Positions 12,652-64,000 of a stretch of DNA of 64,000 nucleotides are shown here, piece after piece. Numbering within the stretch: position 1 is the first letter of the stretch; every line of letters starts with the position of its first letter. A program made the position numbers and the translations under genes. The DNA lies in NCBI GenBank assembly GCA_025617375.2, contig JAMYGW020000014.1:534472-598471 (forward strand). Direction: 5' to 3'. A model generated the notes under the pieces. That model was not told where the DNA came from and searched no databases. It worked only from the letters and a program-made list of their open reading frames with translations. The DNA comes from Acarospora socialis. Its lineage: Eukaryota; Ascomycota; Lecanoromycetes; Acarosporales; Acarosporaceae.

Positions 12652-12770
12652 TCTCTGCGCCTTTCAAGAGTCAAGGACCGTGAGTCGGAGATGGCGACCA
12701 TCCTGATACCGGTCTTATTGAGAAAGCATTGAACGGTCAGCGCGTAAGATGAGCGGCCAACGTCGGTCTC

Positions 12771-39229: not shown

Positions 39230-40093
39230 GTTGCGGTCGCTGTGGGGTCGGCAGGCGCTGAGGTCGTGGTCGGTCTTGAGATGGGTCTGCCTGGCACAAG
39301 GGGGTTATGTCCCTGGCAGTGATGCTGTGCCGGCATCAGCAAATCGATTTGCTTTGCACGCTCTCTGTGGATCAAGTTGGCGGAGTGGCGTCTTGTCCTT
39401 GGTACGTCGAGGCTTTGTCTCTTGAGGCTCCGGTGCCTGTGGAATGCTGCTCTGCGGGATGGCGTCTGAGTCCTGGATGGCAGGCTCAAATTCTGAAGCC
39501 TTGGGTTTGTGGGTCTGCGTGTTCTGCGTCTTCAGCCTGGCTTTCGAGACCCTGACCTTGCCGAGAACCGCAGAAATCGCCTCTTCGGGTCGTCATGGGT
39601 GAAGGTCCTTCGGACGGCTTTAAGTGCGACATCCTTGATCATCATTGTCTCCTTCAACGGATGTCGGATACCCTGTATCCATCGCCCTTCGCTCCTGCTA
39701 GATCCACTGTAGCAAAAGCTTGTGACGTTTCAGGTTCCGTTCAGCATACTTCAGGGCTCGCCGAACGACTTCTGCGTCCTCCACTACACGTTCGGAACCT
39801 GTGGTATCTGTGCCATGGGCTTTCCTCCCAGTGTCATCCAACTCTTTCTTCAACTCATCTCACTTCTTTTCAAACTGCTCAAGGCGTTGAAGGTGGTAGT
39901 TATGAGACTCCATCCAATTCTCCAGCCGGCTCTGTTGCTCCGGGGCCAAAAGTAGGCGGACATTGCCACCCACTTTATCCTTTGCCGACGCTCGCGAACG
40001 TTGTCTACAAACTTGCTGAAGGGTCTGTTTCGATAACTCGCCGAACCCTCCCCTGAAACACGTGGAATCTGTGTCAGTCCGATATGGGCGCAA
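39230..40093 (-). pseudogene. Uncharacterised coiled-coil protein relic
   Basis: Reading from 40,093 leftwards, a continuous protein-like frame contains LSKQTLQQVCRQRSR, LENWMESHNYHLQRLEQFEK, DELKKELDDTGRKAHGT and VVRRALKYAERNLKRHKLLL. It is interrupted by stops after EQFEKK (39,860) and near 39,700. The second half is Pro/Gln/Ser-rich. The repeated charged heptads suggest a coiled coil. I do not recognise the family. Its 5' end lies close to the point where APN2 homology breaks off. Confidence 0.4.
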
Positions 40094-40402
40094 AGCACCA
40101 CGTCAACTGTCCCTGGGAACGATTTCTAATATGGTAATATCGTCTAGTATTTCTCGGGTGGCTTTCAAAGGGGAAATTCGAGGTAGGGCGGATAGCAAGG
40201 AGGACAGCCTTCTTTTTCCAGTTTTTTATGCGCCTGGGCTACTAGCAAGCGAGACTCCTCTTGGTCCAGTGACGGTGTCATGCATCTTCGTTGTCACAAT
40301 GTTAGTGGTAAGGAGAAGACGTATGGTGTGTTAGGACGAACCGCAATGTAGACAGGAGAGCAGTTGCCATCTGCCGTTGTCTAAAGAAACCGCAATGTTG
40401 GC

Positions 40403-41519
40403 TTGTCTCTCCAGGATTATCTGACCGTTTCTGGGCCCGTACTTTATTTTGTTAAGCACTGCCCAGTATACGCAGCACTGAAGGACAAGATCTTGCATGA
40501 TGGCGAAGAGGTTGACGTACGAGATGTTATGAACCCAGCTGGAATGTTCAAAGACGGCAAGAGATTGCGAGAACACTCTATGAAGGATCAGCTTCCGTTG
40601 TCTGGCGAATTAATCCCAGAATTCGATCGACGAAGGAATATTAAAGATATGTTTTCTCGAAAGCCTTCTCTACCAACCGCTCAAAGCACCCAGTCGTCGA
40701 TTTTAACAGAGTGACAATAATTCATTGACAAATATGTCCGAAGTACCTCCGACTGTGTTACAAGAAGCTGTGGATCTACAGATAGTTACCTCTGTACTGC
40801 CCACGACTACTCTACCATCTCCAAACCCAGCTTCTCTTGTCACGCCAGCAAGTCCTGCAAACAGTACCAATAAGAAGAGATCCGTCGGCGACACACTGAC
40901 GAACCACCCTCTCAAACGATCCAAATCGGCCTCTACAGCCACGAATGGGACATTAGCGGGAAAAGGTCAGCAGAGTTTGAAGGGCTTTTTCAAGCCGAAA
41001 CCACCGAATTCATCCACCACTAATGGAATTGGCACCGGAGACGATGCACAATCACCCTTTGGTAGCTCAGAGCACCCTGCGTCCCAGCCAGCAAGCACTA
41101 GTCTCGAGGCAAAGCAGACCAAGAACAGCATAGCGCCCGCATCGCCCACACCCAACAACTCCCCTGCACCAAACAACTATGATCCTGCCCAACAAGAATC
41201 CCAACCAGCCTCCCTGCTTCCGTCCCCCATCATCGCCCGCACCACCTCCATCGCAGACCAAGAGTTCGTCCACGACCCGGTCATCAGCAAAGAATCCTGG
41301 TCCAAACTCTTTACCAAGCCCGCCGCGCCCCGCTGTGAAGGCCACCACGAACCGTGCATCAGTATGTTGACGAAGAAAAGCGGCATTAACTGCGGTCGCT
41401 CGTTCTGGATGTGTGCATGGCCCGTTGGACCTACGGGAACGAAGGAGAGGAATACGCAGTGGCGGTGTCAGACGTTCATCTGGTGTAGTGATTGGAATGG
41501 GGGTGGGGGTGGGAGTTAG
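40403..41519 (+). pseudogene. APN2: APN2, 3' half (AP endonuclease 2 / DNA lyase)
   Basis: APN2 is the abasic-site endonuclease whose gene flanks the mating-type locus in most Pezizomycotina. The remaining part starts at about the HCPVYAALKD motif near the end of the endonuclease fold (the preceding GSD is not seen). It continues RDVMNPAGMFKDGKRLRE, LIPEFDRRRNIKDMFSRKPS, a disordered linker, a PCNA-binding PIP box (QQSLKGFF, about 40,970-40,995) and the C-terminal GRF zinc finger (about 41,330-41,510). The finger has CEGHHEPC, NCGRSFWMCAWPVGP and NTQWRCQTFIWCSDWNGG. The catalytic N-terminal two-thirds are absent, and a one-base shift near 40,705 separates two frames. It is therefore a truncated copy. 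It reads toward MAT1-2-1, so the two genes converge. Confidence 0.92.
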
Positions 41520-42943
41520 GAGTTATTCTCCGCAATGAATATGTGGGAGAATGGATCTAGGGAGTTTGGAGAATCGTGGAGCGTCTGAGTTCTAGACTTG
41601 TGCGAGAATATCCGATCTCTGTTTCCATTTTCATACTCATCAACCACCGTCACGCAGCACAGCGGTCCTCTTAAGAATACAAGAAGCGGTCTTTACATTT
41701 CAGCTAAGTTCAACTATACCCGAGTCAATCCAACGAAGCTGAGTGACATTACACGTGTCAGGGCAATTCGAGGTGCTTGTCACTGCCAATGTACATGACA
41801 TGCCACGACTGCGTTTGCTCTGCTTCCATCGCCTGGGCAGAGAGCTGAAGGTTGTCACAAGCAAAGCCGAAAACGATTTACCCTCGCTCACCCAACCCTC
41901 CCTCCCATAGCAACTATCCTCCTGCCATTGACCGGCAGAGACTGCCCGCCCCTACCCAATCCTTTACACTGCCACAGCATTTCCGCTGTCCTATCTCCGC
42001 AACCACGACGCACGCGTCTCTCGCCCACCCACCAGTCTTCAACTCCCTCTACATCCCCATGCCCCACATCACATCTATTTACTACACATCTCCCATGATT
42101 CTCGCCGTCCGCGTTCTCGGCACAAGGTAAAGGAGTCAGATCTCTATGTACGGATATCTCGGCGCAAGGCGTGGGTGTTCCTAAGCGCTTGAGCGGGGGC
42201 AAGGTGTGCTGGTTCGCATCTTGATATGGTTAGGTTTGAGGGTAGGTGTTGTCGGATCATTTGCAGTATCTTCTCGTCTCTGCTCTAATTGGTGCTCGAG
42301 CAGCTCGGGTTACTGGTCCAATAGGGAGAATGAAGAGGCGGACAAGGAGAGAGGCTGATGATGGTTCCAGGACGGGATGAAAGGGGAAGTGCTAAACGGA
42401 GATGGAGCTGATTAGGGATGTTATTGGGGTTTATAGCGCGTAGTGTTACGGTTCCTAATCAATCCCACGAGTCGGAGAAGAAGTGTTGTTATTCTTGGAT
42501 TGGTATCGTACATCAACTGTCAAGTCACAGGTCGACAACCCTAGCGACGATAACACTTCCCCCATTTCCAGTTGATCGATTCGATTCGATTCTATTTATT
42601 CCTTTCCTGCTCTCCTCCCTAGGCTACTAAGCTAGCTACACCATTCGACCCCGTTATCGACAACTATCTGCCAAGTCTGGATACAGGACCATCTCCATCA
42701 CAATTTCCATTGGCGTTCCATCTGTTCCAACCATACCACTTCAAGGTTCAGACGTCAAGAAAAGAAAACCAGCGCTGCCGTCCACGGGGATTTGAGAATG
42801 GTTGTGGAAAAGGCTTCGCGTTGCAGACGTATAGTAGAACACCGCCTGCCTCGAGAACAGGTATTCAAAAAGCCAAACCATTCGTGTCGTGAGACGGAAG
42901 TCGAGGATCTGTCGAAGCTTGCAGGTGAACCAGGATAGTGAAA
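41520..42943. other. Intergenic region between APN2 relic and MAT1-2-1
   Basis: This lies between two convergent 3' ends. Short frames occur but none looks conserved. Several pyrimidine-rich stretches (for example 41,880-42,060) are typical of fungal intergenic DNA. I see no idiomorph gene here. Confidence 0.5.
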
Positions 42944-44236
42944 TTAAAAGGGGCTCGCTTCGGGGCAGGTCGAGCCCGCAGGCATGCGCTCGAGCTCGGC
43001 GTTTGCGAGAGAGGACCAATCGTTCTCCCAGTCGAACTGTGGCTCGGGCTCAAATAGCGGAAGCGCGTCGTTCATGCTATCTTCAGCCTCATTACCCATT
43101 CCTTCCCAATCGCACATGCTGGAGAAGAAGAGTAGATCGTTGATGCTATCGTCAGATGGCCCATAATGGATAATTGGATAGTCATTGGGTGGGACAACTC
43201 CTGCTTGCGGCGGACCAGGGTCTGGCATGGACTCGTTGTACTCCGTGAGCATAGCAACAAACGCTTCGTCGCTCGCGGTGTTGTCGAGATCAAAGTAGAG
43301 ATTGCCGTTGGGAGCGGTTTCGAGGGTTGGAGTAGGCTCAGGAAAGTTTGCCGATCTCAATAGCGTAGAGGCGTTAGATGTAGCAGCCTCGTCAGTCTCA
43401 TTGAGAGAGGCAGTGGAGGTGCCGGTTTCGACATCGGTAGTAGAAGAAATAGAGGCCGACGCTACAATTAGATCTCCAGAATTTCCACCCGTAGCGATAT
43501 CTTGAGTCTGCGCCACCTTATGGTCTCGAATACCGCCAACCTTAGCAAGAGCGGCAGCCTTGCGACGTGTCATACGTCGTTTCTTCTCAGAGGGCTTGCG
43601 AGGCTGGTACTGATAATCGGGAAACATCTCTGAGTGTTTCCTCTTGATATTGTCGGCGACCGTCTTCCAGCGAGCTTTAACCTCAGCCGACTCACGGGAC
43701 CATTGTTCACCGAGCATCATCGCTTTGAAGAGTTAGCGATTGTTGGCCTAGGTATTGACTGGAACTCACAGATGCGATTGTTGTGATAGTCGGGATGCTG
43801 AGCTGTGATGATTGGATGGTGGTGTTGGCGGTAAAGGATGAATGAATTGGGAGGCCGTGGAACTTTCCCAACCTTAGCTGCTGCCTTTCCCTTATTCGAA
43901 GCCGTCATCGTTTCTGGTCCTGCAGCGAGAACAGAGATGTCTCGTCTGATGACAATTGCGTCGATCGTGGTATCTTCGACAGCGCTCACAGGAGATCCGA
44001 TGAGTTGGCTAATGACTTAGCGAATGTAACAAAAGCTCAGATAGTATCACTTACCTATAGCGGGTTTTGAGCTCTTCAATATCCTCTTGGCTAATAAGTG
44101 ACTTGAGGGCGCCAGGGATGAGCAATGCGCTGGTATGTCCTTGAGCGAACTGAGCAAGAGCGTTTGTCCAGATCAACTGGAGAACGTGCTGAGTCTGGAC
44201 GAGAGGGGCTTGCGCAACAGGGTCGTGCACGTTCAT
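42944..44236 (-). CDS. MAT1-2-1: MAT1-2-1 mating-type HMG-box transcription factor
   Basis: This is the master regulator of the MAT1-2 mating type, a nuclear HMG-box DNA-binding protein controlling pheromone and receptor genes and sexual development. The gene has three exons: 44,236-44,055, 44,008-43,770 and 43,722-42,944. Together they give 1,200 bases, 399 aa, without any break. The HMG box covers residues about 109-184: KVPRPPNSFILYRQHH, then HNNRIS-MMLGEQW, and YQYQPRKPSEKKRR at its end. The second intron splits the serine codon of the box (T|CG), the position known from MAT1-2-1 genes of Pezizomycotina. The N-terminus (NVHDPVAQAPLVQTQHVLQL) and the acidic C-terminus are less conserved. 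The start is the only in-frame ATG before the conserved region, 450 bases from a divergent gene. MAT1-2-1 and the APN2 relic are convergent neighbours. Confidence 0.95.
43723..43769 (-). other. Intron 2 of MAT1-2-1 (conserved HMG-box intron)
   Basis: 47 bases, GTGAGT at the donor, GCTAACTC branch region and AAAG acceptor. It splits the serine codon of the ISxMLGxxW segment. Confidence 0.93.
44009..44054 (-). other. Intron 1 of MAT1-2-1
   Basis: 46 bases, GTAAGT to CATTAG. Splicing joins TATAG to C, giving Tyr-Ser and keeping the frame through GSPVSAVED into the HMG exon. Confidence 0.88.
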
Positions 44237-44686
44237 TATTCTCGAATTATCGTGTTGTTGCTCAGAGCTAAGTAAAGAATATTGGGGGATAAAGCGAATT
44301 GAAGCATAGACGTGAGGTGGAAGTTCGGTTTAGGTTGTTGGTAGCAAGGTTGATGGGTTGAAGTGATATGAGATATGTGTGGTCGAGGTTGACTGTGTCG
44401 AGTGGTTGAGCTCAGTTGCTTCAGCCGGAAAAGCGAGAGGTTGGTTCTTTGTGTTGAGCACCGCCCAAGACACAAGTGCAAAAGAAGCATCTACCAGCAA
44501 ATATCACAGACCTTTTGATTGGCTGCGCGGTGGAGTGAATTTTGACAATAGGGATTGTGAAGTCCCTAGCAACCTTTCATAACACACAAAGTCCTAGCAT
44601 TTAAGAACACCCAATATCATCCCAAGAGCAAACTTTCATTCGAAGAACTCTTTCATAGCCTCAACTTCTAAAACTCATCAGCAGCC
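44237..44686. promoter_or_regulatory. Divergent promoter shared by MAT1-2-1 and the homeodomain-like gene
   Basis: The 450 bases lie between the two start codons. An inverted CCAAT box (ATTGG) is at 44,518-44,522. The rightward ATG has a strong context (GCAGCCATGG). A shared control region would allow the two regulators to be expressed together, which is inference from layout. Confidence 0.6.
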
Positions 44687-45498
44687 ATGGCATTTTCGAG
44701 CATTGGGTTTGACAACAAGGTTGCGGAGGCTTTGAAGAGGATTCGCGATAGCAATGAAAACGACGACGAGACTTGTTCGAAGATCGAGTCCCGTGTAAAG
44801 CAATTTCGCCGTCACCACAACAAAGACGACCAACCTGAAGCTTCGGTAGCCGATATCGACGAGTCATTTACTTTTGGCCGTCGAATGGTCATCGATCCTA
44901 ATAAACGTGTTGAGCCGGAGGTGTTGCTAAGCCTCAAGCAGCTTCAAGAGACAGATGAGGAGACAGCTCAGATTCTGTTGGCGAGTCAGCCCAGCTGCCT
45001 CTACGCTGAGAATGGCGAGATTAATCAACACTATGCGTTGCATCGCTGTGCTGTTCGTGTTCTTGTCGAAGAGTGAGGCATTTACTACCATGTATTAGAC
45101 AATGGGCACAGCTGACCTTCGTAATAGCGAAACCGACGTCTTGATCCAACAGTTAGGTTGCGCGGCAGCCCACACCAACTTCAGGCAAGAAGCTGTGAAG
45201 CTGTTTGAGCAGTTCTTTGAAGTATGCCAGAGGCCCAACGCAGCTGAGATAGCGCTGCTTGCTCGAGTGGGTATAGCCGATCCTGCAGCAGTTACGGAGT
45301 GGTGTTAGTATCCTTTCCAGAATGTTGCAAGACGCTCTGCTGATGTATTTTGCAGTCAATCAGAAACGAGAACGTATGAAGCCTCTTTTCATCGCAAGAG
45401 CTGTTAGCGGTGGGAATGGACCGGTGGCAAGATATCTCCGCAAGGAGCGTCTTGGCCAGGGACAGCAAGTGACGAAGAAACCTCTCACACGCCATTAG
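44687..45498 (+). CDS. Homeodomain-like protein divergent from MAT1-2-1
   Basis: Three exons, 44,687-45,072, 45,128-45,303 and 45,356-45,498, total 705 bases and 234 aa without a break. Introns are 55 and 52 bases (GTGAGG...CTGAC...ATAG and GTTAGT...CTGAT...GCAG). Residues about 150-196 look like a homeodomain. Helix 1 is KLFEQFFEVCQRP, helix 2 is EIALLARVGI, and recognition helix 3 is AAVTEWFNQKRERMK (residues 187-192 WFNQKR), split by intron 2 inside the Phe codon. The usual signature is WFxNxR; here Asn and Gln are exchanged, while Trp, Phe and the last Arg are kept. The N-terminal 130 residues are helical and unknown to me. From its position it may be an idiomorph-specific mating-type gene. 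I recall accessory genes such as MAT1-2-14 reported in Lecanoromycetes, but cannot tell whether this is one. Confidence 0.8.
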
Positions 45499-46323
45499 GA
45501 ACTCGACAAGGAGGGAATTCTCTGGCATGAGGTGGTATGCTCGGAGATTCGAATTGGAATGCTAGGGTGTTTTTCAGTAGGCGCAGCTGCAAGGAGTCGA
45601 AAGGTGATCCCAATCAAACAGCCTCATTGCAAGATTCCTTTAATATAAGGCAAGAAGTAGAGGAGCAGCCACACTTAAACACCTGAAACTGGGAATGAAA
45701 AACCAATTCTGGCTTCACTAGTCCAGAAAGACAAGCCATATTCTGCTTTATAATGCTTCTTTGGCAGTATTGATCGCGATATGCAGAGCCTGTTTGAAAA
45801 TGCGTACGAGAAGAACATTCCTGACGTAACAAACTTTTCTCTCACACCCCACCCACCAGACCCACACCCGCAGCGGCGGCAGCGGCGGCAACGGCAACGA
45901 ACCTTACCCACCCAATCCAAACCCCACGCACGCCACCCGCCGGCAGCGGCAGCGCTTATAGCGTCTACCGCCCAAGCCCTGCATCCGCAAACCTCCCTCA
46001 ATCCCTCCTGCAAACCTCCCCCCATCCACCGTCCCAAAACCCTTTCTCTCCCCAAATCCCCGCACACCGTAACACCACTCTCACAACCCCACATCCCAAG
46101 CGACCAATCTCCACATCTCTCCCTTCATCACCTCCCCCCAGCGACCCTCGTACAGCCAAAAAGGTGTATCTACTAAACATGTTCACTGCATATTCTACAC
46201 AGCTAGATTCTATATCAAAGAGCTGCATAGCGCAATTTGTGGCTCCTGCTCTTACAAGCTTAACTGTTGTGAGCGAGCCTTGTGAGACACCACCATGCCT
46301 TTACCTCCGGTACAGTTTCATTG
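45499..46323. other. Region between homeodomain-like gene and retroelement block
   Basis: A C-rich, low-complexity stretch (45,840-46,160) encodes Pro/Ser/Thr-rich frames, such as YSVYRPSPASANLPQSLL in one frame. It may be the edge of a truncated gene or intergenic DNA. No SLA2 or other known MAT flank gene is recognised. The plus-strand frame at 45,781-46,176 is open for 131 codons but is probably composition-driven. Confidence 0.4.
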
Positions 46324-46673
46324 TGTTACGGCCAAGCCAAGATGGGCTTTGGGCGGACTGGTGCGTACGCGCAAGGAGCGTATATCCAGGGGATATCTAA
46401 GCAGCAGTCACGTGACACCTCGACATGCTCAACGGCGAGCTTGGCGAGCAAGCTCGACGGGTTGCATGGGCGAGCCATCTCGACGGGCTCGACGGCGAGG
46501 CCGGCGAGCGGGCTCAGTATATAGTCACGGTCATTTCCCTTATGGAAAGGATCATGTTCAACTCCAGTTACAATCTAAGAATTAGATCTACAAGCCTGCT
46601 GCAGAAACCCTTATATCAATAAGTCAAAACCCTTAGCTCTAATATCAGAGAAATCTTCAGTGAGAACATAACA
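46324..46673 (+). repeat. LTR, least mutated copy
   Basis: 350 bases starting TGTTAC and ending ATAACA. The first 200 bases are still GC-rich and align base by base to the mutated LTRs at 48,856 and 54,686. They serve as a reference: CGGCGAG corresponds to TGATGAG, GGGCGAGCC to GAGCAAGTC and ACCTCGAC to ATCTTAAC. Confidence 0.88.
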
Positions 46674-47500
46674 CTTTGAAAACTCTTACAATATAAGAAT
46701 GACCACCTCTACAGCAGCTCAGAAGTCAGCTTTGACAAGTTAAGTCAATCTTCAAGATCTAACATTCATTAGCAATGTGTTCAAGATATCACCACCTGAT
46801 GCATTCACTGATGAGAGAGAAAAGCTGTGAAGCTTCTTGATCAAGCTCAAGTTATACATTGAATTCAATCTGACTAAGTTCAAATCTGAGATGAACAAGA
46901 GTCTGTTCATCATGTTATACATGAAGAATGCAGTCTTCAACTGAGTAAATCTCAAGCTGCATGAGTTTCTTGACAAGACATCACACAAACAACTTGCAAA
47001 TAGAGAATTCATCTTCTTTAACTACAATAAATTCAAAAAAAAGCTACAAAAAGTCTTCAGAGTAGTGAATGAGAAGTGAGTAGTGAAAAGATATTTACAC
47101 ATTTTAAAAATGAACAGATCAGCAGTTAAGTATGTGGTGAAGTTTCAGAGAATTGTGACTTTAACAAATTGAAATGATGATGTTTTCACATCATAGTATT
47201 ACTGAGAACTTCACAAGATTATCAAAGATGAAATAGCTCAAATAAATCAATTAAAGACACTTCAAGAGATGATTAACATCTTTATTAACATAAACAATTA
47301 ACAATAAAAGCAACAGATAAAGCATAATGAACATTAAGCATCATTTAGATTTGAATGAAAAAAAAAGCTTACTCAAATATGTTGAAAGAGTGATTTAATG
47401 AATCTCAATACAATTAAAAAGCATCATCAGATCTCAATGAAAAAACAAGTGAAATAAAGTAATTAAATAGAGTGACTGCTGAGTCAGTGATTGTGATGTC
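46674..47500 (+). mobile_element. Gypsy gag fragment, diverged copy
   Basis: It follows the LTR directly and aligns to the gag region of the full copy (KLYIEFNLTKF, then a region with SVKYVVKFQ and DEIAQINQ). It is more diverged than the copies to the right and lacks pol. Confidence 0.7.
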
Positions 47501-47764
47501 TTGAGATTGTCTTTACTGTCTGTTCTGATCAGTATAGCAGTTATTTCATCAAAAATTTCAAAACTTCAAAGCAGTGCATTGAGACTGAAAGCAATCAAAA
47601 TTTTATGATTTTTGAGTCAGTTTGTAGTGTTTTTTGAGTGCTTCATAAATTACATATAATCTTCAAAATTACACAGTAAACAATCAAAATTACACACTAT
47701 TACACAACAGGTCAGATCAAGAATATCTGGCCTGATCTGACCTGATGATCACTCTATAATCAAT
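47501..47764. other. Unassigned AT-rich segment
   Basis: It does not align to the gypsy copies by eye. It ends with a short GGCCTGATCTGACCTGATGATC stretch that keeps CC and GG. It may be a remnant of another element. Confidence 0.4.
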
Positions 47765-48850
47765 TAAAACAATACATCTTTAAATCTCAACAGCAATGAG
47801 CAACAGAGACTTAAAAGTGCTATAATTATGAAAAACTCAAACATCTTGTCTGAGAATGCAACAGATTTTAAATAAAGCAAAAAGATATTGCAGTGACAGT
47901 TAAAAAGAATACATACATAATGTATAACACTTTTAACTGAACAGTCTGCTACAATAATATGTACTAAACACATATAAGTATTAAAAACAGAGCTGAATGA
48001 TATCTCAGAAAATTGTGCAATGACATAAGAAATAAATATGACATAATGAGTTGATCAATTTATAAAAAAGAATTAACTATTTTTACAAAAGAATATATCA
48101 AGAAAAACATTCTTGATACTGAGATTAAAGAAGTCAATACTTAAAAAACTCAAATGTTACAATCAAACACATAAGTATGTCTGTGAAATGTATAGAATAA
48201 ATTGACAAAAATAAATACATAATAACATAACTACTTAACAACAAGACATTAAGCTGAGTGCTTAACTACTTAACATAAAAACATTAAAATACACATTAAC
48301 TCAACAGCAGAATGTTGAGTTACAATTTATATAAACACAGTCATTTTTCTTATGAAAAGAATTGTGTTCAACTTCAATTACAATCTAAAAATTAAATCTA
48401 TGAGCTTGCTGCAGAAACTCTTATATCAATAAGTTAAAACTTTTAGCTTTAATATTAAAGAAATCTTTGATGAGAACATAATACTTTAAATACTCTTACA
48501 ATATAAAAATAATCACTTTTACAGTAGTTCAGAAGTCAGCTTTAATAAGTTAAGTTAATCTTTAAAATTTAACACTCATTAGTAATGTACTCAAAATATC
48601 ATCATTTGATGTATTCATCAATAAGAAAGAAAAGCTGCAAAGCTTCTTGATTAAGCTTAAGTTATACATTGAATTTAATCAGATCAAGTTCAAGTTCAAG
48701 ATAAACAAAAGTCTGTTCATCATGTCATATATGAAGAATACAGTTTTTAACTGAGTAAATCTCAAGCTGCACAAGCTTTTTGACAAAACATCACAGAAAT
48801 GACTTGCAGATAAGAAATTCATCTTTTTTAACTATTAGTAGTTTAAAAAG
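47765..48850 (+). mobile_element. Gypsy fragments: gag end, LTR 3' part (to 48,483), gag start
   Basis: The segment around 47,820-47,960 matches the zinc-knuckle part of gag in the full copy. About 48,320-48,483 is the 3' half of an LTR (TTTTTCTTATGAAAAG...ATAATA), followed by the start of gag up to 48,850. The full element begins six bases later. Confidence 0.7.
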
Positions 48851-48855
48851 AAAAG

Positions 48856-49206
48856 TGTTACAATCAAGTCAGAACAGACTTAAAACAAACTGATGTGTAC
48901 ACACAGAGAGTATATATTCAAGAAATGTTTAGACAGCAGTCATGTGACATCTTAACATGCTTGATGATGAGCTTGATGAGCAAGCTCAACAGATTGCATG
49001 AGCAAGTCATCTTGACAGACTCAACAGCAAGATCAACAAGCAGACTCACTATATAGTAGAATTGTTTTTCTTATGAAAACAATCATATTCAACTTAAGTA
49101 ACTATCTAAGAGTTAAAGTTCAAAATCATTTCAGATCAGCTGTTATATCAACAAGCACAAACTCTTAGCTCTACATACTTGAGAAATCTCAGGTTAGAAT
49201 GTTACA
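48856..49206 (+). repeat. 5' LTR of the full-length gypsy element
   Basis: 351 bases, TGTTAC...GTTACA, same length as the 3' LTR. It contains the promoter-like CTATATAGTAG near 49,050. Confidence 0.9.
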
Positions 49207-49237
49207 CTTTGAACACTCTTATGATATAACAAGTATG

Positions 49238-50220
49238 ATGTCTGACACACAGAAGAATGTCTCATCTTTGTTCTTGAAGCAAGCTCAGACAAACTCATCT
49301 TTACTATTTACTTTGAGTAGAATGGTGACACAATCAGTGATGATGTCAGTTCAAGCTATACAACTACTTCTGAGTGCATCAAAGATACAGATATCAGATA
49401 TCTTTGATGAAGAAAGAGAAAAGTTGCAAGTCTTTGTGACTAAACTTAATCTGTACATTGAATTTAATCAACTGAAGTTTTAAATCAATCAAGAAAAGAC
49501 ATTGTTTGCAACAATCTATCTTGTGAATGCAGTCTTCAATTGAGTTGACCTCAAGCTGCATGAGTTTCTAGAAAAGAAGTACAAAGAATGCAACACAGAT
49601 ACAGAGTCTATGTTCAATGACTATGCACAATTTAAGAAAGAGTTAAGAAAAGTCTTCAGAGTGATTGACAAAAAAAGAACAGCTGAGAAATGAGTTCATA
49701 TCTTGTGACAGAGTGAATCAGCAACAGTATACACTATGAAGTTTCAGCAGTTAGCAACACTTATCAGATGAAATGATGAAGCACTCATTTACCAGTACTA
49801 TTGTGAGTTGAGAAAATTCATCAAAGACAAAATAGCTCAAGCAGAACAACCAGATAATCTTCAGAAAATGATCAATCTGAGTATCAACATTGATAGTTGT
49901 CAATGAGAACAACAGATGAAACAAAAGAAATATTGAATGTCATCTATAATAAAAGATCAAGAAGAAAGCTTTCAGCTGTGAATGAAGCAATACATTTCAT
50001 CAATAAGACATAGAGAAACAGACTCTATGAATCTCAATATGATTAAGAAGTGCTGTTAAAAGTCATAAAAGACTAAATAAATGAAGCATGAATGTCAGTC
50101 AGAGTGATTCACTAAGTCTCAGATAACACTGCAAAACAAAATATAAATGTATTATAACTGCAGAAAATCTGAACATCTTGTTTGAGAATGCAACAGATCT
50201 CAAATAAAAGAAAAAAATGT
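49238..50220 (+). pseudogene. gag of full-length gypsy element
   Basis: It encodes the capsid-like protein that packages element RNA. It is open to 49,483 and then broken by TGA codons at Trp sites. Recognisable parts are FVTKLNLYIEFNQLKF, FNDYAQFKKELRKVF, YQYYCELRKFIKD and a CCHC knuckle core YNCRKSEHLV followed by TGA and EC. Confidence 0.85.
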
Positions 50221-51171
50221 TGCAGTGACAGTCAAGAAAAATATATGCATAGTGTATGACATTCTCAGCTAAACAGTCTGCTACAATGACATGTGCAGAG
50301 TACACATGAGTACAAAAAATAAAGTCAGATAGTACTTTCAGAGACTGCACAAAGATGTGAAGAACAGATATGATGTGATGAGTTAATCAATTTATAAGAA
50401 AGAATTAGCTATTCTTATCAAGAAAAGAGTTCTTGATGTTGAGAAAGAAGACAATGTTCTTGAAGATAACATTGAAGAGACTGATGATCATGAATTTCAG
50501 ATTGATGAATCTTGAATATTTTCTGATAGCAATACACTCATGAAAAAAAGTTTGAACAATGTCAAGACAGAATTCTCAAGAAAGTATTAAGCAAAGATTA
50601 AGAAAGATCTAAGTGTCAAAAAAGAAACAACATCAGATCAAAATGCAATGCAAGAGAGAAAACAAAAAACTCAAAATCAGAAAGCAAAGATATACAAAGA
50701 ATTTGACAGTTTAATAAAAGATGTACAAACAGTCACAAGAGAATCAATATCAGAATCTCTTGTGTGAAAAATCAAGAGTCACAAGATTAAGATATGCTTA
50801 TCTGAAAAGTATATCATGCAGAATGAAGACAGATGAATCTTCAGTGAAGAATATATATTATCTGAATTTCTGCAAAGAGTAAAAGTCTTTGAGAGTCAGT
50901 TGCAGATAAAGTATGATCAGTATGAACTCTGACTACATTCAGAAAGATGCATTGAGTAATATAGTCTAGAGTATGTGAATCTCATGATTAAAAAAGAACT
51001 CAAATGATTTCAAGAGCTTTGAAGATAAGCTGAATGATTAAGTGAATCAAAAAATAAAAAGCTTTCTCAATGAAACTAGAGAACAAGAAGCTAGCAATGT
51101 CTCAAAAACAAGACAATGATCATCAGATATGAATTAAGATCATGATCAATGAATATTAAATTAATACATTA

Positions 51172-51410
51172 ATGAATTTTGAAGCAAATGAGAATATTAT
51201 GAATCAGAAAACAGTCAACATGTTGAAATTAGAGACACAGCAAGTGTGCTGTTCATTTAACATAAGAATGACAAATAAAGTTATTGAAAGAATTGATGAG
51301 AAAATCTGTGTGAAAGTCTCAATTCTTGAAAACTCACAAGAGATAATGTTTGATGTTATGAAATCAATTGAATATGATGCAGTGCTAGAAATGCTCTGAT
51401 TGTGCAGAAG
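51172..51410 (+). pseudogene. Protease region of full-length gypsy element
   Basis: The segment IMFDVMKSIEYDAVLEML matches the end of the aspartic protease region just before RT in gypsy elements. The catalytic DSG is not readable. Confidence 0.6.
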
Positions 51411-51559
51411 AAATTTAAGAATTGATTGAGTTATGAAAGAAATATGTGCAGTTAAAAATGCATATGAAATCTCTGAACAATCAGAGATGAGCTTATCAGA
51501 GCATAAGTTATGAAATCACAAAATACTGCTATTGGATGAAAAACAATCTAAGTGAATGT

Positions 51560-52260
51560 CTTTATACTCAATGAGTGAGAATCAACTCAAGAAAGTTAGA
51601 GCTTATCTTGACAAGAATCTCAAAAGAGAATTTATAAAATCATCAAAGTCATCAGCAGAATATTCAATCCTGTTTGTATCAAAGAAAAATGACAAAAAAT
51701 AACTATGTGTTGACTACAGACAACTCAACAAGATAACTCATCAAAATAGTTATTTTCTACTGCTGATAAAAGAGTTGCAAGATTGATTAGACAAGACTAA
51801 GTGATTTACAAACTTAAATCTTAAGAATGTCTATTATCAAGTCAGAATGAAGAAAGATAAAGAATGAAAGATGACATTCTGAATGAGATATGAACACTAT
51901 GAATACACTGTTATGTCATTTGAGTTGAAAAATGCATCAGTCATCTTTCAGAGATTGATCAATGACATATTGAGAGAATATCTTGATGATTTTGTGATCA
52001 CATATCTCAATAATATTCTGATATACTCAGAAGATCTTGAAGAGCATTGCAAACATATGCAAAAGATATTGACAAAGCTCAATGAGAGAGTCTTGTACAT
52101 AAAAAAGTTAAAAAGCAGATTTGAGATTCAGAAAGTTGAGTTTCTAAATTATGTGATTTGATTTAAACAAATTGAAAAGAATTCAAAGAAGATGAAAGCA
52201 GTCAGAAACTGATCAACATTAAAATGAATCAAGAAAGTACAGGTCTTTCTAGAATTGATG
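51560..52260 (+). pseudogene. Reverse transcriptase of full-length gypsy element
   Basis: Motifs in order are SSAEYSILFVSKKN, VDYRQLNKIT, NVYYQVRM, FELKNASVIFQRLIND and the catalytic site. The last reads YLNNILIYS instead of YLDDILIYS, because both Asp codons have changed to Asn by G-to-A change. TGA codons replace Trp and Arg at about 51,786, 51,811, 51,866 and 51,881. Confidence 0.9.
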
Positions 52261-52499
52261 AACTATTATTGAAAGTTTGTATCAAACTATGCAAGAATTG
52301 TGAAATCACTAACACATTTGATGCACAAGAGCAAAGAGTAGCATTGAAATCAAGAGTAGAAAAATGCATTTCACACATTAAAGAGAAGACTTAATGAAAC
52401 AGCATATCTGAGAATACTCAATTCAGCATACAAAAAGACACTGAAAACTGATGCTTCAGATTTTGCAGTAAAAGTGTGCTTATATTAGATTGAGAAAGA

Positions 52500-52800
52500 A
52501 AAGCAGAAACTCATAGCATATTGATTTAGAAAACTATCAGAACTCAAGAAAAGATATGAGATTCATGACAAGAAACTTCTTGCAATAGTGAAGACATTAC
52601 AAGATTGAAGATCTTATCTTGCAGAAACAAACAAGTCAATTCAGATCTATACAGATCACAAGAACTTGAGAAACTTTGCAATGACAAAACAACTCAATCA
52701 ATGACAGATTCATTGAGTGAAGCAGTTGACAGATTATGAATTTCAAATTCATTACAAGAAGAATAATGAAAATGATAAAGCAAATGTCTTGAGCAAATGA
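52500..52800 (+). pseudogene. RNase H region of full-length gypsy element
   Basis: It contains KKRYEIHDKKLLAIVKTL, then IQIYTDHKNLRNF and DYEFQIHYKKNNENDKANVL. These are typical of the gypsy RNase H and its end, with TGA at the Trp of LQEW. Confidence 0.85.
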
Positions 52801-52899
52801 TCTGATCATGAAGATGTACAAATGATACATGTTGAAATTCTCAGTGAAGACAACAACAAAATTCTTATAAAGAACTTAGCAGCAACATACAAGATGAAA

Positions 52900-53640
52900 C
52901 AAGCTTTCTTGATAGATAAAGAACTCATTGAGAGATGTTATCACAGCAAGATTGAAGAACATCTAGAAGTTAAATGCACTGAAGATCTAGTACAAAGAAG
53001 ATGCAATGTTAACAATTTTAAAAATTGAATCATCAAAATGATTGCTATGTGCAATTTATGCTGAAGAAACAGAATTAACTGAGACAAATAATATGACAAA
53101 ATAACACAACTGAACACATCAGATGCATCATGAAAATCAGTTATCATAAACTTTATCATAAAATTGTCACTGTCAAGAGATTCAGCATGAAGAGTGAAAT
53201 TTGATAGCATATTGATCATAGTAAACAGATTAATCAAGTACATGATGTTCATTTCATTCAAAGAAACTGTGACAGCATCAATATTGACATATATGATACT
53301 AAGAGAATTGATTAACAATTATGAGCTATCAAAAGAATTTATCACTGACAGAGACAAGCTGTTTACAAGCAAATTTTGAAAAATGCTCACAGCAGAACTC
53401 AGAATAAAACATAAGATGTCAACAGCATATCATTTACAGACAGATAGACAGAGTGAATGAATGAATCAGATAGTGAAAACATACTTAAAACACTATGTCA
53501 ACAAGAATCAGAACAACTGAGTATGACTGTTGTCAACAGCACAGTTTGTATACAACAATACAAGAAACAAAATCATGAAAGAAATGTCTTTCTATGTGAA
53601 CTATGACTACAACTTAAAGATGTGACAAGATCTCAAAGAA
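52900..53640 (+). pseudogene. Integrase of full-length gypsy element
   Basis: A zinc-binding HHCC part (LIERCYHSKIEEHL and MCNLC) precedes the DDE core: ILIIVNRLIKYMMF, FITDRDKLFTSKF, then TAYHLQTDRQSE and MNQIVKTYL. TGA codons stand for the Trp after TSKF and for both Trp residues before LLSTAQF. Confidence 0.88.
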
Positions 53641-53994
53641 CACAGATCATGAAATCAAAAAGTGATTTTAGATATCACTTAGATAAAGAAACTGCATCAA
53701 GATCTAATGAAACACATTGAACAGCAGACAGAACAAACAATAGAAGCAAAATCATTTAAAGAAGAAGAGAGAGTATATCTGAGAATGAACAACATAAAGA
53801 CTAAAAGAAAAAGCAAAAAGCTGAAAAACAAAAACATAAAATCATTCAAGATCATACAGAACATCAAGAGAATAAGTTATGAGCTAAACTTACTTAAGAA
53901 AATGAGAATACATCTAATATTCTATGCATTCATGCTACAGCATTGCAATCAGTTCATATCACTTCAAATCACTGAAATGTCTGTTGAACTTAAA

Positions 53995-54115
53995 AAAGAA
54001 TATGAAGTTGAGAACATTTTAGAGAAGAGAATGATTAGTGAGAAAGCTCACTATCTCATAAAATGAAAAAATTATAATATCTTAGAAAATATCTGAGAAC
54101 TCAGAGAGAATCTCA
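53995..54115 (+). pseudogene. C-terminal chromodomain of full-length gypsy element
   Basis: The text reads KEYEVENILEKRMISEKAHY, then LIK, TGA, KNYNILENI, TGA, ELRENLKN. With Trp at both TGA positions this is the chromodomain pattern (EYEVExIL...YLVKWKGY...TWE). It marks the element as a chromovirus, a group whose chromodomain is thought to guide integration to methylated-histone chromatin. Confidence 0.85.
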
Positions 54116-54685
54116 AGAACTGTGTGAAAACACTTCAATATTTTGAGAAAAGAAGTCAATATTAGCTCAGAAGAATGACAACATTGAGTTAATAAGTTAT
54201 GACATTGTTTGAAAATCTTCATTCTCAGTTTCATCATTATCACTATCAAGTTCAGCAGCAAGACAGTCAATCTTCTGTGAAGCACAGTAATTCATTTGAT
54301 TCAGTATTTTTTAAAGATGTATGACTTTTGAGAAAAGTGCAGCAAGCTCAGTGTGCTTGACTGTCAATTTGCTGTTTGCTTTACTTATTTTCTTTTGAAG
54401 CAAAAGACAAGTTCTATTGAGAGACTTTCACAACATACTGACACACAGATGATCACAGTGAGTATACTTATTACATTTTGATCAAGATTTTATTACAAAA
54501 CAGTCAATGCTGCAACAGACACAATAGTCACAAGAGAGCAAGATAGACACATCATCAATCTGAATTTTCTTTGTGATTCTTAGACAATTGAAATTTTTAG
54601 AAAGCATCATCACTGATGACAGACAATGTGAATACTCTCACTTATATAGATTCTAGAAAACTAGTGTCTGAGAAGAGAAAAATAG

Positions 54686-55036
54686 TGTTACAGTCAAGTC
54701 AGAATGAACTTAAAGCAAACTGATGTGTATGCACAGAAGATGTATATTCAAGAAATGTTTAAACAACAGTCATGTGACATCTTAACATGCTTGATGATGA
54801 GCTTAATGAGCAAGCTCAACAGATTACATAAGCAAGTCATCTCAACAGACTCAACAGTGAGATCAACAAGCAGACTCACTATATAGTAGAATTGTTTTTC
54901 TTATGAAAATGATCATATTCAACTTAAGTAACTATCTAAGAGTTAAAGTTCAGAATCATTTCAGATCAGCTGTTATATCAACAAGCACAAACTCTTAGCT
55001 CTACATATTCAAGAAATCTCAGATTAAAACATTACA
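54686..55036 (+). repeat. 3' LTR of the full-length gypsy element
   Basis: 351 bases, TGTTAC...ATTACA, nearly identical to the 5' LTR. Differences are mainly transitions. Confidence 0.9.
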
Positions 55037-55128
55037 AAGTTTCTGAAAGTCAGTTGCAGATGAAGTACAATCAGTATAAACTTTGATTACACTAAAAAAA
55101 ATACATTGAGCAGCACAGTTTAAAGTAT
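55037..55128 (+). mobile_element. Short pol fragment of another gypsy copy
   Basis: It aligns to about 50,888-50,980 of the full copy (GAGTCAGTTGCAGAT region). Confidence 0.65.
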
Positions 55129-55462
55129 TGTTACAGTTATACTCTAAAAGATATAATCAGTTTCAGAAATACAATCAGATAAATATATACACAAGTATGA
55201 AACAACAGACACAAGACTTAACAAAGTGTACAATAGTGCTGAGAGCACTATTAAAACAAAAGACATAAGAGTGTGCTAAATGTCAGTTCTATATAGTAAA
55301 ATTGATTTTTTTATGAAATTAATCATGTTTAACTCAAGTAGTCACATACTAGTTATAATAAAGTGTTTACTCAACATCACTGTATCAGAGAACTCTTATA
55401 TTAATAAGATTAAACATTTGAGCTTTAACATATTTGAGAAATCTCAGATTGAATATTACACT
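55129..55462 (+). repeat. Solo LTR, diverged relative
   Basis: It starts TGTTAC, ends near ATTACA at 55,460, and contains the CTATATAGTA and TTTATGAAA landmarks of the other LTRs. Much of the rest is diverged, so it is an older or separate subfamily. It abuts the next LTR. Confidence 0.65.
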
Positions 55463-58156
55463 TATTACAATTATATTCTGTAAAAAAGAAACTTGTAAAT
55501 CTATACTCAGAAGTTTATCTGAAGTGTGTATAAAAAGAACTGCTAGATAGCAGTCACATAATAATGCAACAACTCAATGATGAGCAAATGAGCTGAAAGC
55601 TCAATTTCTCAACATCAAAACATTAAAACATCAAGAATACTCAATGCAGAGACATCAAGCTCACTCTATATAGTAGAATTGTTTTTTCTATGAAAATAAT
55701 CATGTTCAACTTAATTAACTATCTAAAAGTTAAAGATCAGAACTGTTTCAGACCAGCTGTTATATTAATAAGCATAAACTTTTAGCTCTACATACTTGAG
55801 AAAGCTCAAATTAGAATGTTACACTTTAAACATTCTTACAATATAACAAGTACAATGTCTGACACACAGAAAAACATCTTAATCTTGTTTTTAAGATAAG
55901 TTCAGACAAACTTATCTTTACTATTTACTTTAAATAGAATGATGTCACAATCAGTGATGATGTCAGTTCAAACTATACAACTATCTTCAAGCACATCTAA
56001 GATACAGATATCAGATATCTTTGATGAAGAATGAGAAAAGCTGCAAGTTTTTGTGACAAAGCTTAATCTGTATATTGAATTCAATCAACTGAAGTTTTAA
56101 ATCAATCAAGAAAAGACACTGTTTGCAACAATCTATCTTGTAAATGCAGTCTTTAATTGAGTTAATCTCAAGCTGCATGAGTTTCTAGAAAAAAAGTATG
56201 AAGAATGCAACACAGACATGAAGTCTATGTTCAATGACTATGAATGATTTAAGAAAAAATTAAGAAAAGTCTTCAAAGTGATTGACAAAAAGAGAGCAGT
56301 GAAGAAATAGATTCACATCTTGTGACAGAATAAATTAGTGACAGTATATGTCACAGAGTTTCAGCAGTTAGTGACACTTATTAGATAAAATAATAAAGCA
56401 CTCATCTATCAGTACTATTGTGAGTTGAGAAAGTTCATCAAAGATAAAATAGTTCAAGCAGAATGATCAGACAATCTTTAAGAAATAATCAATCTAAGTA
56501 TTAATATTGACAGTTGTCAATGAGAACAACAGATAAAACAAAAAAAATATTGAATGTCATCTATGATAAAAGATCAAGAAGAAAGCTTCTGATCATAAAT
56601 AAAGTGATATGTTTTATCAATAAGATATAGAGATACAGACTCTATAAATCTCAATATAATTAAGAAGTACTGTCAGAAGTCATAAAAAACTAGATAAATA
56701 AAGTCTGAATGTTAATCAGAGTAATTCACTAAGTCTTAGATGACATCACAAAATAAAATGTAAATATATTACAACTGTAAAAAATCTGAACATCTTGCTC
56801 AAGAGTGCAACAGATCTCAAATAAAAAGAAAAAACATTGCAGTAACAGTCAAGAAAAATACATGTGTAGTGCACAACACTCTCAACTAAACAGTCTGTTA
56901 CAATAACATGTGCAGAGTACACATAAGTACAAAAGACAGAGTCAGATGATATTCTCAGAAACTGTGCAAAGATGTAAGAGATGAATATGACATGATGAGT
57001 CAATTAATTTATGAGAAAGAATTAACTATTTTTACAAAAGAATATATCAAGAAAAGTATTCTTAATGTCAAGATCAAAGAGACTGATACTTGAGAAACTC
57101 AGATAGAAAAAGACTACATTAATAGTATCTGTCAAGTACTGAATTCAGATGTAGATCAGAAAGAAATTAATAAATAAAAAGTTAATATAAAACTGAAGAA
57201 AGCATATCAGCACTTGAAAAATCAATGCAAAATATTGAAGAACAAAAAGCTTCAGTTCAAGAAGTACAAGCTTAAACAAGAAAGACAAGCTTGAAAATGA
57301 AAGACACAACACAAGAATGTGAAAAAACAAAAAACATACAATCAGCTAGATAAGCTGATAATAGCTGTTAAAGATAAATGTTTCAACAGTGACAATGCAG
57401 TACTGTCAAGATTTCTTGTTTAAAAGATAAAGAGTTACAAGATTGAGATATATTTATCTGAAGAGTATATCATGCAGAATGAAGACAGATGAATTTTCAG
57501 CAAAAAATATATATCACTCAAATTTCTGCAAAGAGTAAAAGTCTTGAAGAGTCAGTTACAGATAAAGTACAATCAGTATAAATTTCAACTACATTTAAAA
57601 AGATACATTGAGTAGCACAGTCTAAAGTATGTGAATCTTATGATCAGAAGAGAACTCAGATGATTTTAAGAACTTTGAAGATGAACTGAGAAATCAAGAA
57701 AATCAAAAAACAAAAAGCTTTTTCAATAAGACTAGAGAACAAGAAGCTAGCAGCATCTCAAAGACAAGACAATGATTATTAAGTATGAATTAAAATCACA
57801 ATCAATGAACATCAAATCAATGCATTGGTGAATTTTGAAGCAGATGACAACATTATGAGTTAAGAAACAGTTAATATGTTAAAATTAGAGACACAGTGAG
57901 TGTGCTGTTCATTTAACATACAAATGACAAATGAAGTCATTGAAAGAATTGAAGAAAAAATCTGTGTGAAGATCTCAATTCTTGAAAACTCACAAGAAAT
58001 AATGTTCAATATTATGAAATTTATCAGATATGATGCAATGCTAGAAATGTCTTGATTGCATAAAAAGAATTCAAAAATCAATTGAGTTACAAAAGAAATA
58101 TGTGCAGTCAAAGACACATATGAGATTCTCAAGCAATCAGAAATAAACTTATCAAA
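55463..58156 (+). mobile_element. Truncated gypsy copy D (LTR, gag, protease region)
   Basis: A 361-base LTR (55,463-55,823) is followed by gag from ATG 55,857 and the protease region. It breaks off at 58,156, at the place that corresponds to about 51,500 in the full copy. There the LTR of the next copy begins, which suggests that copy E inserted into copy D. Confidence 0.8.
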
Positions 58157-61100
58157 TGTTATAATTATATCTGAAAAAAAAGAAACTTGTGAGTCTGTGA
58201 TCAGAAGTTCACTCAAAGTGTATACAGAGAGAACTGCTAAACAGCAGTCACATAATAATACAACAGTTTAATAGTGAGCAGATGAGCTAAGAACTCAATT
58301 TCTCAACATTGAGACATCAAGACATCAAGAGTGCTCAATGTGAAAGCATCAAGCTTGCTCTATATAGTAGAATTGATTTTCTTATGAAAATCATCATGTT
58401 TAACTTAAATAACAATCTAAGAGTTAAAGACCAGAACCATTTTAAATCAGCTGTTATATCAATAAGCACAAACTCTTAGCTTTACATACTTGAGAAAGCT
58501 TAGATTAGAATATTACACTTTAAATACTCTTATAATATAATGAGTATGATGTCTGACACACAGAAGAATGTCTCAATCTTGTTTTTGAGACAAGCTCAGA
58601 CAAACTCATCTTTATCATTTACTTCAGATAGAATAATGATGCAATTAATGATGATGTTAGCTCAGATCATACAACTATTTCTGAGTATAATTAAGATATA
58701 GGTACTGAATATCTTTGATGAAGAATGAGAAAAGTTGTGAGTCTTTGTGACTAAGCTCAATCTGTACATTGAATTCAATTAACTGAAGTTTCAAACTGAT
58801 CAGAAAAAGACACTGTTTGCAACAACTTATCTTGTAAATGTAGTTTTTAATTGAGTTGACTTCAAGCTGCATGAGTTTCTAGAAAAAAAATACAAAGAAT
58901 GCAATGCTGATGCAGAGTTTATGTTCAATGATTATGAACAGTTTAAGAAAGAATTAAGAAAAGTCTTTGAAGTGATTGATGAAGAGAAAGCAGCAAAGAA
59001 ACAGATTCACATCTTGTGACAAAGAAAATCAGTAACAGTATACATCATTAAGTTTCAGTGATTAGCAACACTTATCAGATAAAACAATGAAGCACTCATC
59101 TATCAGTACTACTGTGAGTTGAGAAAGTTCATCAAAGACAAGATAGTCTAAGTAGAACAATCAGACAATCTTCAGAAAATAATCAATCTAAGTATTAATA
59201 TTGACAGTTGTCAGTGAAAACAACAGATGAAACAAAAAAAATATTAAATACTATCTATAATAAAAGATCAAGAAGAAAGCTTCTGATCATGAATGAAATA
59301 ATATATTTTATTGATAAGATATAGAAAAACAGATTTTATAAATCTCAATATGATTGAGAAGTGCTGTCAAAAGTCATAAAAAACTAAATGAGTAAAGTCT
59401 AAATGTCAAACAGAGCAATTCACTAAGTCTCAGATGACATCACAAAATGAGATGTAAACATGTTATAACTGTGAAAAATCTGAACATCTTGTCTGAGAAT
59501 GCAACAGATCTTAGATAAAAAGAAAAAATATTGCAGTGACAGTTAAGAAGAATACATGTGTAGTGCATGATGTTCTCAGCTGAACAGTCTGCTATGATGA
59601 CATGTGCAGAGTACACATGAGTACAAAAGATAAAGTCAGATAATATCTTCAGAAATCACACAGAGAAAGATATGACATGATAGATTGATCAATTTGCAAG
59701 AAAGAATTGACTATTCTTATCAAGAAAAGAGTTCTTGATGCTGAGAAAAAAGACAATGCTCTTGAAGATGACATTGAAGAGACTGATGATTATGAATTTT
59801 AAATTGACAAATCATGAATAATTTCTGATAGTGATACACTCATGAGAGAAAGTTTAAATGATGCTGAAACAGAATCTTTGAGAAAGTACTGAACAAAGAT
59901 TAAAAAGAATCTAAGTGCTCAGAGAGAAATGACATCAAACTGCAAGATAATATGAAAGAAAAAGCAAAAGACTTGAACTCAGAAAGCAAAGACATACAAA
60001 GAATTTGATGAACTAATGAGAGATATATGAACAATTATGCAAGAATCAATGCTAAAACCTCTTGTGTGAAGAACACAGAGTCACAAGATTGAAATACACT
60101 TATCTGAAGAGTATATCATGCAGAATAAAAACAGATGAATCTTCAGTGAAGAATATATATCATCTGAATTTCTGCAAAGAATAAAAGCTTTTGAGAGTCA
60201 GTTGCAGATAAAGTACAATCAGTATGAATCTTAACTACACTCAGAAAAACACATTAAACAATATAGTTTAAAATATATGAATCTTATGATCAGAAGAGAA
60301 CTCAGATAATTTTAAGAACTTTGAAGATGAGTTGAAGAATTGAAAAAGTCAAAAAATAAAGTGTTTTCTTGACAAGACTAGAGAATAAGAAGCTAGTGAC
60401 ATCTCAAAGACAAGACAATAATCATTGAATATGAATCAAGATTGAAATCAACAAACATCAAATCAGCACATTGATGAATTCTGAAGCAGACAGTAATATT
60501 ATAAGTTAAAGAATTATTAACATGTTAGAATTGAAGACACAGTGAGTGCACTATTCATTTAACATTCAAATAACAAATAAAGTCATCAAAAGAATTGATG
60601 AGAAAATCTGTGTGAAAGTTTTAATTCTTGAAAGCTCACAAGAAATAACATTTAATGTTATGAAATTAATCAGATATGATGCAATGCTAGAGATATCTTG
60701 ATTATACAAAAAGAATTCTAGAATTAACTGAGTCACAAAGAAGATATGTGCAGTGAAAGACACATATGAAATTTCTAAACAATCAGAAATGAGCTTATCA
60801 GAGCATAAGTCATGAGATCATGAGATATTGCTATTGAATGAAAAGCAATCTAAGTGAATGTCATTGTACTCAATGAGTGAGAATCAACTCAAGAAAGTGA
60901 GAACTTATCTTGACAAGAATCTCAAGAAAGAATTCATAAAATCATTAAAATCACTGATAAAATATCTGATTCTATTTGTATCAAAAAAGAATGACAAGAA
61001 ATGACTATGTGTTGACTACAGACAACTCAATGAGATAACTTACTGAAACAGTTATTCTCTATCATTGATAGAAGAATTGCAAGATCAGTTAAGTAAGACT

Positions 61101-63863: not shown

Positions 63864-64000
63864 TTAGGGTTAGGGTTAGGGTTAGGGTTAGGGTTAGGGT
63901 TAGGGTTAGGGTTAGGGTTAGGGTTAGGGTTAGGGTTAGGGTTAGGGTTAGGGTTAGGGTTAGGGTTAGGGTTAGGGTTAGGGTTAGGGTTAGGGTTAGG
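63864..64000 (+). repeat. Telomere, (TTAGGG)n
   Basis: 22 complete perfect TTAGGG units and TTAGG, 137 bases, to the window end. The G-rich strand runs 5' to 3' toward the end, as expected for the right end of a chromosome. No variant units are present. Confidence 0.99.

Follow-up and report, generated by a model that had tools for sequence, protein, structure and literature searches.

A divergent-homeodomain auxiliary gene beside MAT1-2-1 in a subtelomeric MAT1-2 unit of Acarospora socialis

In filamentous ascomycetes, MAT1-2 is an idiomorph described as being defined by one HMG gene (PMC2999568). The question here is what a second gene, transcribed away from MAT1-2-1 in Acarospora socialis and ending in a helix-turn-helix, might be. 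A conserved homeodomain partner in the idiomorph would mean that homeodomains are used in mating identity here, as they are in yeasts and basidiomycetes. We analysed this gene within a stretch of 64,000 nucleotides that forms the end of contig C14 (the window), and compared it with the rest of the genome assembly (31.1 Mb, 38 contigs). The gene occupies 44687..45498 on the plus strand and encodes a protein of 234 aa, an assignment based on its gene model, its homologues and its single copy in the genome. Its three exons (44687-45072, 45128-45303 and 45356-45498; 386+176+143 = 705 nt) are separated by introns of 55 nt (GTGAGG..TAG) and 52 nt (GTTAGT..CAG). Many GT/AG combinations can be formed at this locus, and the three-exon model was picked among them because its donor sites fit and the homologue from Pleopsidium flavum aligns without gaps over both junctions. 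The GC content at the three codon positions (0.617/0.379/0.536) follows a coding pattern, and an own-genome search returned no second copy. The intact three-exon gene divergent from MAT1-2-1 that the first-pass annotation described is thereby confirmed, as are the helix motifs quoted from its product (EQFFEVC, LARVGI and WFNQKRERM). The 450 bp that lie between the two start codons, ATG to ATG (44237..44686), are a presumed shared promoter, a role read from gene orientation only.

A first search with this protein gave 7 proteins at E<=10, and an alignment search, in which 7,999 candidates sharing most words were scored, gave 12 distinct homologues, two of them full length and ten limited to exon 1. 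The latter (P0002-P0011) are exon-1 frames from metagenome data, with 6 of the 10 ending exactly at the equivalent donor site and the other 4 continuing for 10-13 residues. The full-length homologues are an annotated protein of 235 aa from Pleopsidium flavum (P0001, 56% identity over 100%) and a protein from Pycnora praestabilis (P0012, 33% identity over 100%). Four blocks are kept in the three full-length proteins, namely an N-terminal MxFxxxGF, RCAxRxL, EQFF..CQ.PN.AEI.LL.R.G....V..WF.QK, and the KKPxTRH that ends the C-terminal tail. In both Pleopsidium and Pycnora the locus tag of the homologue is two steps from that of the neighbour gene beyond SLA2 (M1830_008743/008745 and M1827_007369/007371), which suggests that in these fungi the ordinary MAT locus includes the gene, on the same SLA2 side.

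Critical to the identity of the gene is the long third block, which was compared with known homeodomains in several ways. The Pfam homeodomain model PF00046 matches residues 145-196 (45174..45381, plus strand) with 23.9 bits against a cut-off of 22.9 (E = 3.8e-5). The coding sequence for this domain is split by the intron at 45304-45355, inside the helix-3 WF codons, and exon 2 alone reaches 17.5 bits, under the Pfam cut-off. The Pycnora homologue scores 24.0 bits (E 3.3e-5), above the cut-off, and the Pleopsidium homologue 20.9 bits (E 3.2e-4), under the curated cut-off. When the C-terminal regions of the three proteins are combined into a profile and run against 177,635 PDB sequences, 40 chains are retrieved at E<=10, with PROTODERMAL FACTOR 2 at the top (E 0.0048); 36 of the chains are homeodomains (by name or by the known identity of the entry), 2 are ceramide synthases that contain a homeobox-like region, and 2 are unrelated. 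Compared profile against profile with five homeodomains encoded elsewhere in this genome, the family aligns over 46 ungapped columns, with a probability of 74.9 and an E of 2.6e-5 for this single comparison. The homeodomain that had been proposed at residues 150-196 is thus supported at the level of profiles and in three lineages, with Pleopsidium below the cut-off, and we take the signal to be real though divergent; the match exceeds chance. An own-genome family search with PF00046 listed the five other homeodomains and did not list this gene, in which an intron interrupts the domain, while an NCBIfam search of P0001 and P0012 gave nothing useful. An N-terminal match of the window protein to UBA_3 (16.3 bits against a cut-off of 20.4) was rejected because it is listed neither for the Pleopsidium homologue (E<=1) nor for that of Pycnora (E<=10).

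It could be argued that the similarity is convergent, and that a generic three-helix module has come to resemble a homeodomain without being one. Such a reading could draw on the weak result of a single-sequence PDB search (best E 0.069, with colicin immunity proteins or lysozyme accounting for 8 of the 12 matches), as well as on a negative control, in which a weak profile built from the genome's five homeodomains placed no real protein among the top 15 of 3003 sequences, all 15 being shuffles. However, Pfam significance is reached by distant members of the family, and homeodomains dominate the PDB matches of the profile, so that we regard convergence as improbable and continue with a divergent homeodomain.

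How such a domain might handle DNA depends on its third helix. In homeodomains, Trp48, Phe49 and a basic residue at position 53 are the usual helix-3 residues, while Asn51 is the most constant residue of all, near invariant, and is the usual base-reading residue. With W187 set to position 48, W48, F49, K52 and R/K at 53 are kept in all three full-length members, and residues W187, F188 and R192 of the window protein provide the expected residues at positions 48, 49 and 53. In contrast, position 51 is Gln (residue 190) in each of the three proteins, where Asn is expected, and base recognition is therefore probably changed or partner-dependent. In essence, the protein probably binds DNA with altered specificity or via a partner, in the manner of yeast a1 with alpha2. 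Alternatively, the fold may have lost DNA binding altogether and persist in this MAT1-2 auxiliary gene as a protein-protein module only, for example one that modulates MAT1-2-1. The replacement of Asn51 by Gln throughout the three full-length members and a homeodomain score near the cut-off both lend themselves to this alternative, while the retention of Trp48, Phe49, Lys52 and the basic position 53 in all three, together with the basic C-terminal tail, speaks against it; we consider it possible, if rather doubtful, and prefer a homeodomain that still binds DNA.

Whether the gene belongs to the mating type or is merely its neighbour was judged by comparing the window with a second locus of the same genome, on contig C12. 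MAT1-2-1 itself (42944..44236, minus strand) is an open frame of 399 aa in exons 44236-44055, 44008-43770 and 43722-42944, with its HMG box split over two exons. Between the blastn matches of the window to the C12 locus lies a gap, confirmed genome-wide, that defines the idiomorph core (43039..45824); this stretch of 2.8 kb has no similarity to the C12 MAT1-1 locus, and contains nearly all of MAT1-2-1 and the whole of the homeodomain gene. Outside the core, the two loci share a flank on the APN2 side that runs up to the 3′ end of MAT1-2-1 (41520..43038, 84.5-86.4% identity) and a flank on the SLA2 side (45825..46020, 77.4% identity over 199 columns). Beyond the former lies a 3′ fragment of APN2 (40457..41519, plus strand), which comprises the last exon only and, by comparison with the C12 copy, is frameshifted by a deletion of 2 nt. 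The flanks of the unit end after 2.6 kb on the APN2 side and 0.2 kb on the SLA2 side. The homeodomain gene is a MAT1-2-specific auxiliary gene, wholly within the stretch that differs between the two idiomorphs of this genome. It is paired head to head with the HMG regulator inside the idiomorph, as had been proposed, and the prospect that it is an ordinary gene present in both mating types does not hold in this genome, where it is absent from the MAT1-1 locus and single-copy. A tblastn search of window 40000-47000 for traces of either MAT1-1-1 or the auxiliary gene on C12 had a best E of 0.22, and none was accepted. The shared flanks do not have the C-to-T direction bias of RIP, their transitions being balanced. 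Within the APN2-side flank, a non-coding stretch at about 41755-41867 has short matches of 76-78% outside the MAT loci, at C9:920476-920587 and C4:164979-165051.

The second locus, C12:1094482-1100760 (L016, L017), is MAT1-1 at the SLA2-APN2 locus, and window 40457-46020 is its MAT1-2 counterpart. Its MAT1-1-1 gene, with an alpha box, is open and encodes 369 aa. It lies about 2 kb from an SLA2-type I_LWEQ domain, found once in the genome, and on the near side of an APN2-type gene, for which a partial model has two long open exons, one of them with an endonuclease domain. A gene next to SLA2 on C12 (L016:2455-4878) has, among the 120 listed of 1834 matches, three proteins at 85-87% in front, followed by Acarospora aff. 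strigata at 78% and Pleopsidium flavum at 75%, which puts the fungus near Acarosporaceae. Several smaller features accompany this locus. Between MAT1-1-1 and APN2 is an open auxiliary gene (L017:2924-3794, minus strand) with a provisional splice model and no significant Pfam match, which by position is perhaps MAT1-1-7, a place implied by the Letharia paper (PMC10512270). Towards APN2, the border of the MAT1-1 idiomorph is marked by a remnant of the 3′ end of MAT1-2-1 (C12:1098002-1098061, or 14003-14061 in the local C12 numbering), and between this remnant and APN2 there is a short tandem repeat (L017 about 4880-5140, with repeated GVYRC / IHSTS frames), whose window counterpart, near 42070-42091, is short.

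The genome therefore holds an open MAT1-1-1 on C12 and an open MAT1-2-1 on C14, and as read from sequence this gene set is of the homothallic type. The MAT1-2 unit on C14 is no allele at the usual MAT locus, because its APN2 is cut and frameshifted, its flanks are short, and the contig runs on to the telomere. This second idiomorph, the subtelomeric place and the broken APN2 fragment go beyond the first-pass annotation, which had the window only. Compared with the C12 exon, the APN2 fragment has a dS of 0.36 and a dN/dS of 0.26 over 352 codons, a ratio which indicates that most of the APN2 divergence arose under selection in both lineages, so the MAT1-2 segment would be an old MAT-linked allele or a piece from a related species that was later moved or trimmed. 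In the non-coding shared flank there are 18 gap openings, of which 14 are not multiples of three. We do not take the open frames as proof that selection continued after the move to the subtelomere, as the dN/dS of 0.26 dates most of the divergence to before APN2 lost its function.

These same values bear on whether the two idiomorphs share a nucleus at all, as the assembly might come from a hybrid or combine two species or two mating types, and C14 might be misjoined. Two APN2 copies whose dS and dN/dS imply lineages that were long separate and functional would be expected of such a mixture. However, a full second MAT locus is not what C14 contains: its APN2 is a last exon only, with a frameshift, and its flanks stop after short distances while the contig goes on to a telomere. 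The single I_LWEQ domain of SLA2 and the genome size of 31.1 Mb likewise argue against a mixture, which we judge unlikely. The preferred reading is one in which MAT1-2 at a subtelomere and MAT1-1 at the SLA2-APN2 locus place both gene sets in one nucleus, and this fungus could thus be self-fertile.

The contig ends in 23 copies of the telomere repeat (TTAGGG)n (63863..64000, plus strand), about 18 kb from the unit, and most of the intervening DNA is an AT-rich, CpG-depleted subtelomeric stretch of about 17 kb (46570..63862, with a left edge that is approximate, as it was placed in 200-bp steps). Here, the observed/expected ratio of CpG is 0.04 (46400-63800), compared with 0.93 in window 1-40000, and CpA and TpG are raised. 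This is the signature of a CpG-targeted C-to-T process, not of classical CpA-targeted RIP. The depletion has an abrupt start near 46600, and the MAT1-2 genes are free of it, with ratios of 1.02 (MAT1-2-1) and 0.99 (homeodomain gene). Within the subtelomere, decayed frames at window 48566-48754 and 49169-49483 have a similar repeated stretch, EKLQ.F..KL.LYIEFNQ.KF, and are perhaps remains of a repeated element. At the other end of the window, in 948-15759, open frames on the minus strand resemble, as judged by eye, a nonribosomal peptide synthetase split between several frames; after them come plus-strand frames that look like an ABC transporter.

A subtelomeric place beside AT-rich DNA, open genes, and arms homologous to the MAT1-1 locus on both sides are features that a silent donor cassette for mating-type switching, like yeast HML/HMR, could also have. 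Yet the arms are only 77-86% identical, which argues against a switching donor because recurrent gene conversion would hold them near identical, and this explanation has very little likelihood in our view. The unit may, as an alternative, simply be silent. Since the MAT1-2 genes are open and have been spared the CpG depletion, however, expression of the unit and self-fertility are plausible, and subtelomeric MAT1-2 together with MAT1-1 offers a concrete case for how self-fertility arises in lichen fungi.

Taken as a whole, the evidence makes it quite probable that the gene is an auxiliary one specific to the MAT1-2 idiomorph, most likely MAT1-2-14 of the Lecanoromycetes or a close relative of it, and that its product is a small nuclear transcription factor and putative co-regulator with MAT1-2-1. 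The homeodomain of this product is C-terminal and of standard length, and there is also the basic C-terminal tail KKPxTRH. The shared 450-bp region probably drives the homeodomain gene and MAT1-2-1 together, and the homeodomain protein would then act with the HMG protein in MAT1-2 nuclei, where it may help to control either MAT1-2 identity or development after fertilisation. The signature WFxQK[RK] with KKPxTRH provides a handle for finding the gene in other classes.

Mating-type loci of other fungi offer several points of comparison. In Candida-type MATa loci a homeodomain gene, a1, occurs with an HMG gene, a2, and basidiomycete mating loci contain paired HD1/HD2 homeodomain genes. In yeast MATa1, as in the window, the homeodomain gene is a neighbour of an HMG gene and both lie in the a-type idiomorph. 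The a1 protein (1f43) ranks fifth of the 40 PDB profile matches with an E of 0.072, which is not significant, and the sequences are too short and diverged for a tree; helix 3 of a1 reads WFINKR, with Asn at position 51, whereas the window protein has Gln. It would be attractive to suppose that a homeodomain gene was present in the ancestral ascomycete MAT locus, was kept in Lecanoromycetes and relatives and lost or overlooked elsewhere in Pezizomycotina, and that the HMG-homeodomain pair is the counterpart of yeast MATa, moved as a unit to the subtelomere here, but we give this history only a slight chance of being correct. The basidiomycete genes are likewise homeodomain regulators at a mating-type locus; they are paired with each other, whereas the window gene has an HMG partner and is flanked by APN2 and SLA2 remnants. 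In Aspergillus fumigatus, MAT1-2-4 is an auxiliary MAT1-2 gene, like the window gene, and is needed for mating and cleistothecia (as cited in PMC8454179); it was compared by its description, which does not mention a homeodomain there, and Pizarro et al. (2019; PMC6414310) group only the Xanthoria parietina gene with it.

The closest counterparts are found in Lecanoromycetes. In Lecanoromycetes of the MAT1-2 type, Graphis scripta excepted, Pizarro et al. (2019; PMC6414310) describe an auxiliary gene that lies between MAT1-2 and APN2; for Cetraria islandica, C. commixta and Umbilicaria pustulata they note a match to the homeodomain-leucine-zipper model pfam11569. The suggestion in the first-pass annotation that the fold of such a gene was never recognised is not borne out, given this match. 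The Letharia paper names MAT1-2-14, which it finds in no group but Lecanoromycetes, and in its main text uses neither homeodomain nor homeobox as a term (PMC10512270). Like these genes, the window gene is confined to the MAT1-2 idiomorph, lying within 43039-45824 with no counterpart on C12, and it is probably the already named MAT1-2-14. This likeness is one of description rather than sequence, the protein matches containing no MAT1-2-14 of Letharia, Cladonia or Umbilicaria. Three differences stand beside it: the window gene lies towards SLA2 from MAT1-2-1 rather than between MAT1-2 and APN2, it matches PF00046 where the genes of Pizarro et al. match PF11569, and it has a homologue in Pycnora, which would be a difference if that genus falls outside Lecanoromycetes, the group to which homologues of MAT1-2-14 are described as confined (PMC10512270). 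The main text of Pizarro et al. (2019; PMC6414310) does not mention Acarospora, Acarosporales or Pleopsidium, and besides that paper we recognised none, among those listed by literature searches, with a homeodomain gene at MAT1-2; the homeodomain passages of PMC8454179, PMC3583454, PMC9602353, PMC7344243, PMC3203195, PMC2834667 and PMC2999568 describe none at a Pezizomycotina MAT1-2. The gene class and a hint of its domain are therefore already in print, and the gene is not unprecedented. What is new is that the homeodomain is clearly supported in Acarosporaceae-like fungi and in Pycnora, with a constant Gln51, that the gene stands head to head with MAT1-2-1 on the SLA2 side, and that MAT1-1 is accompanied in one genome by a MAT1-2 unit at a subtelomere, in contrast to the one idiomorph per genome reported for all 39 Lecanoromycete genomes (Pizarro et al., 2019; PMC6414310).
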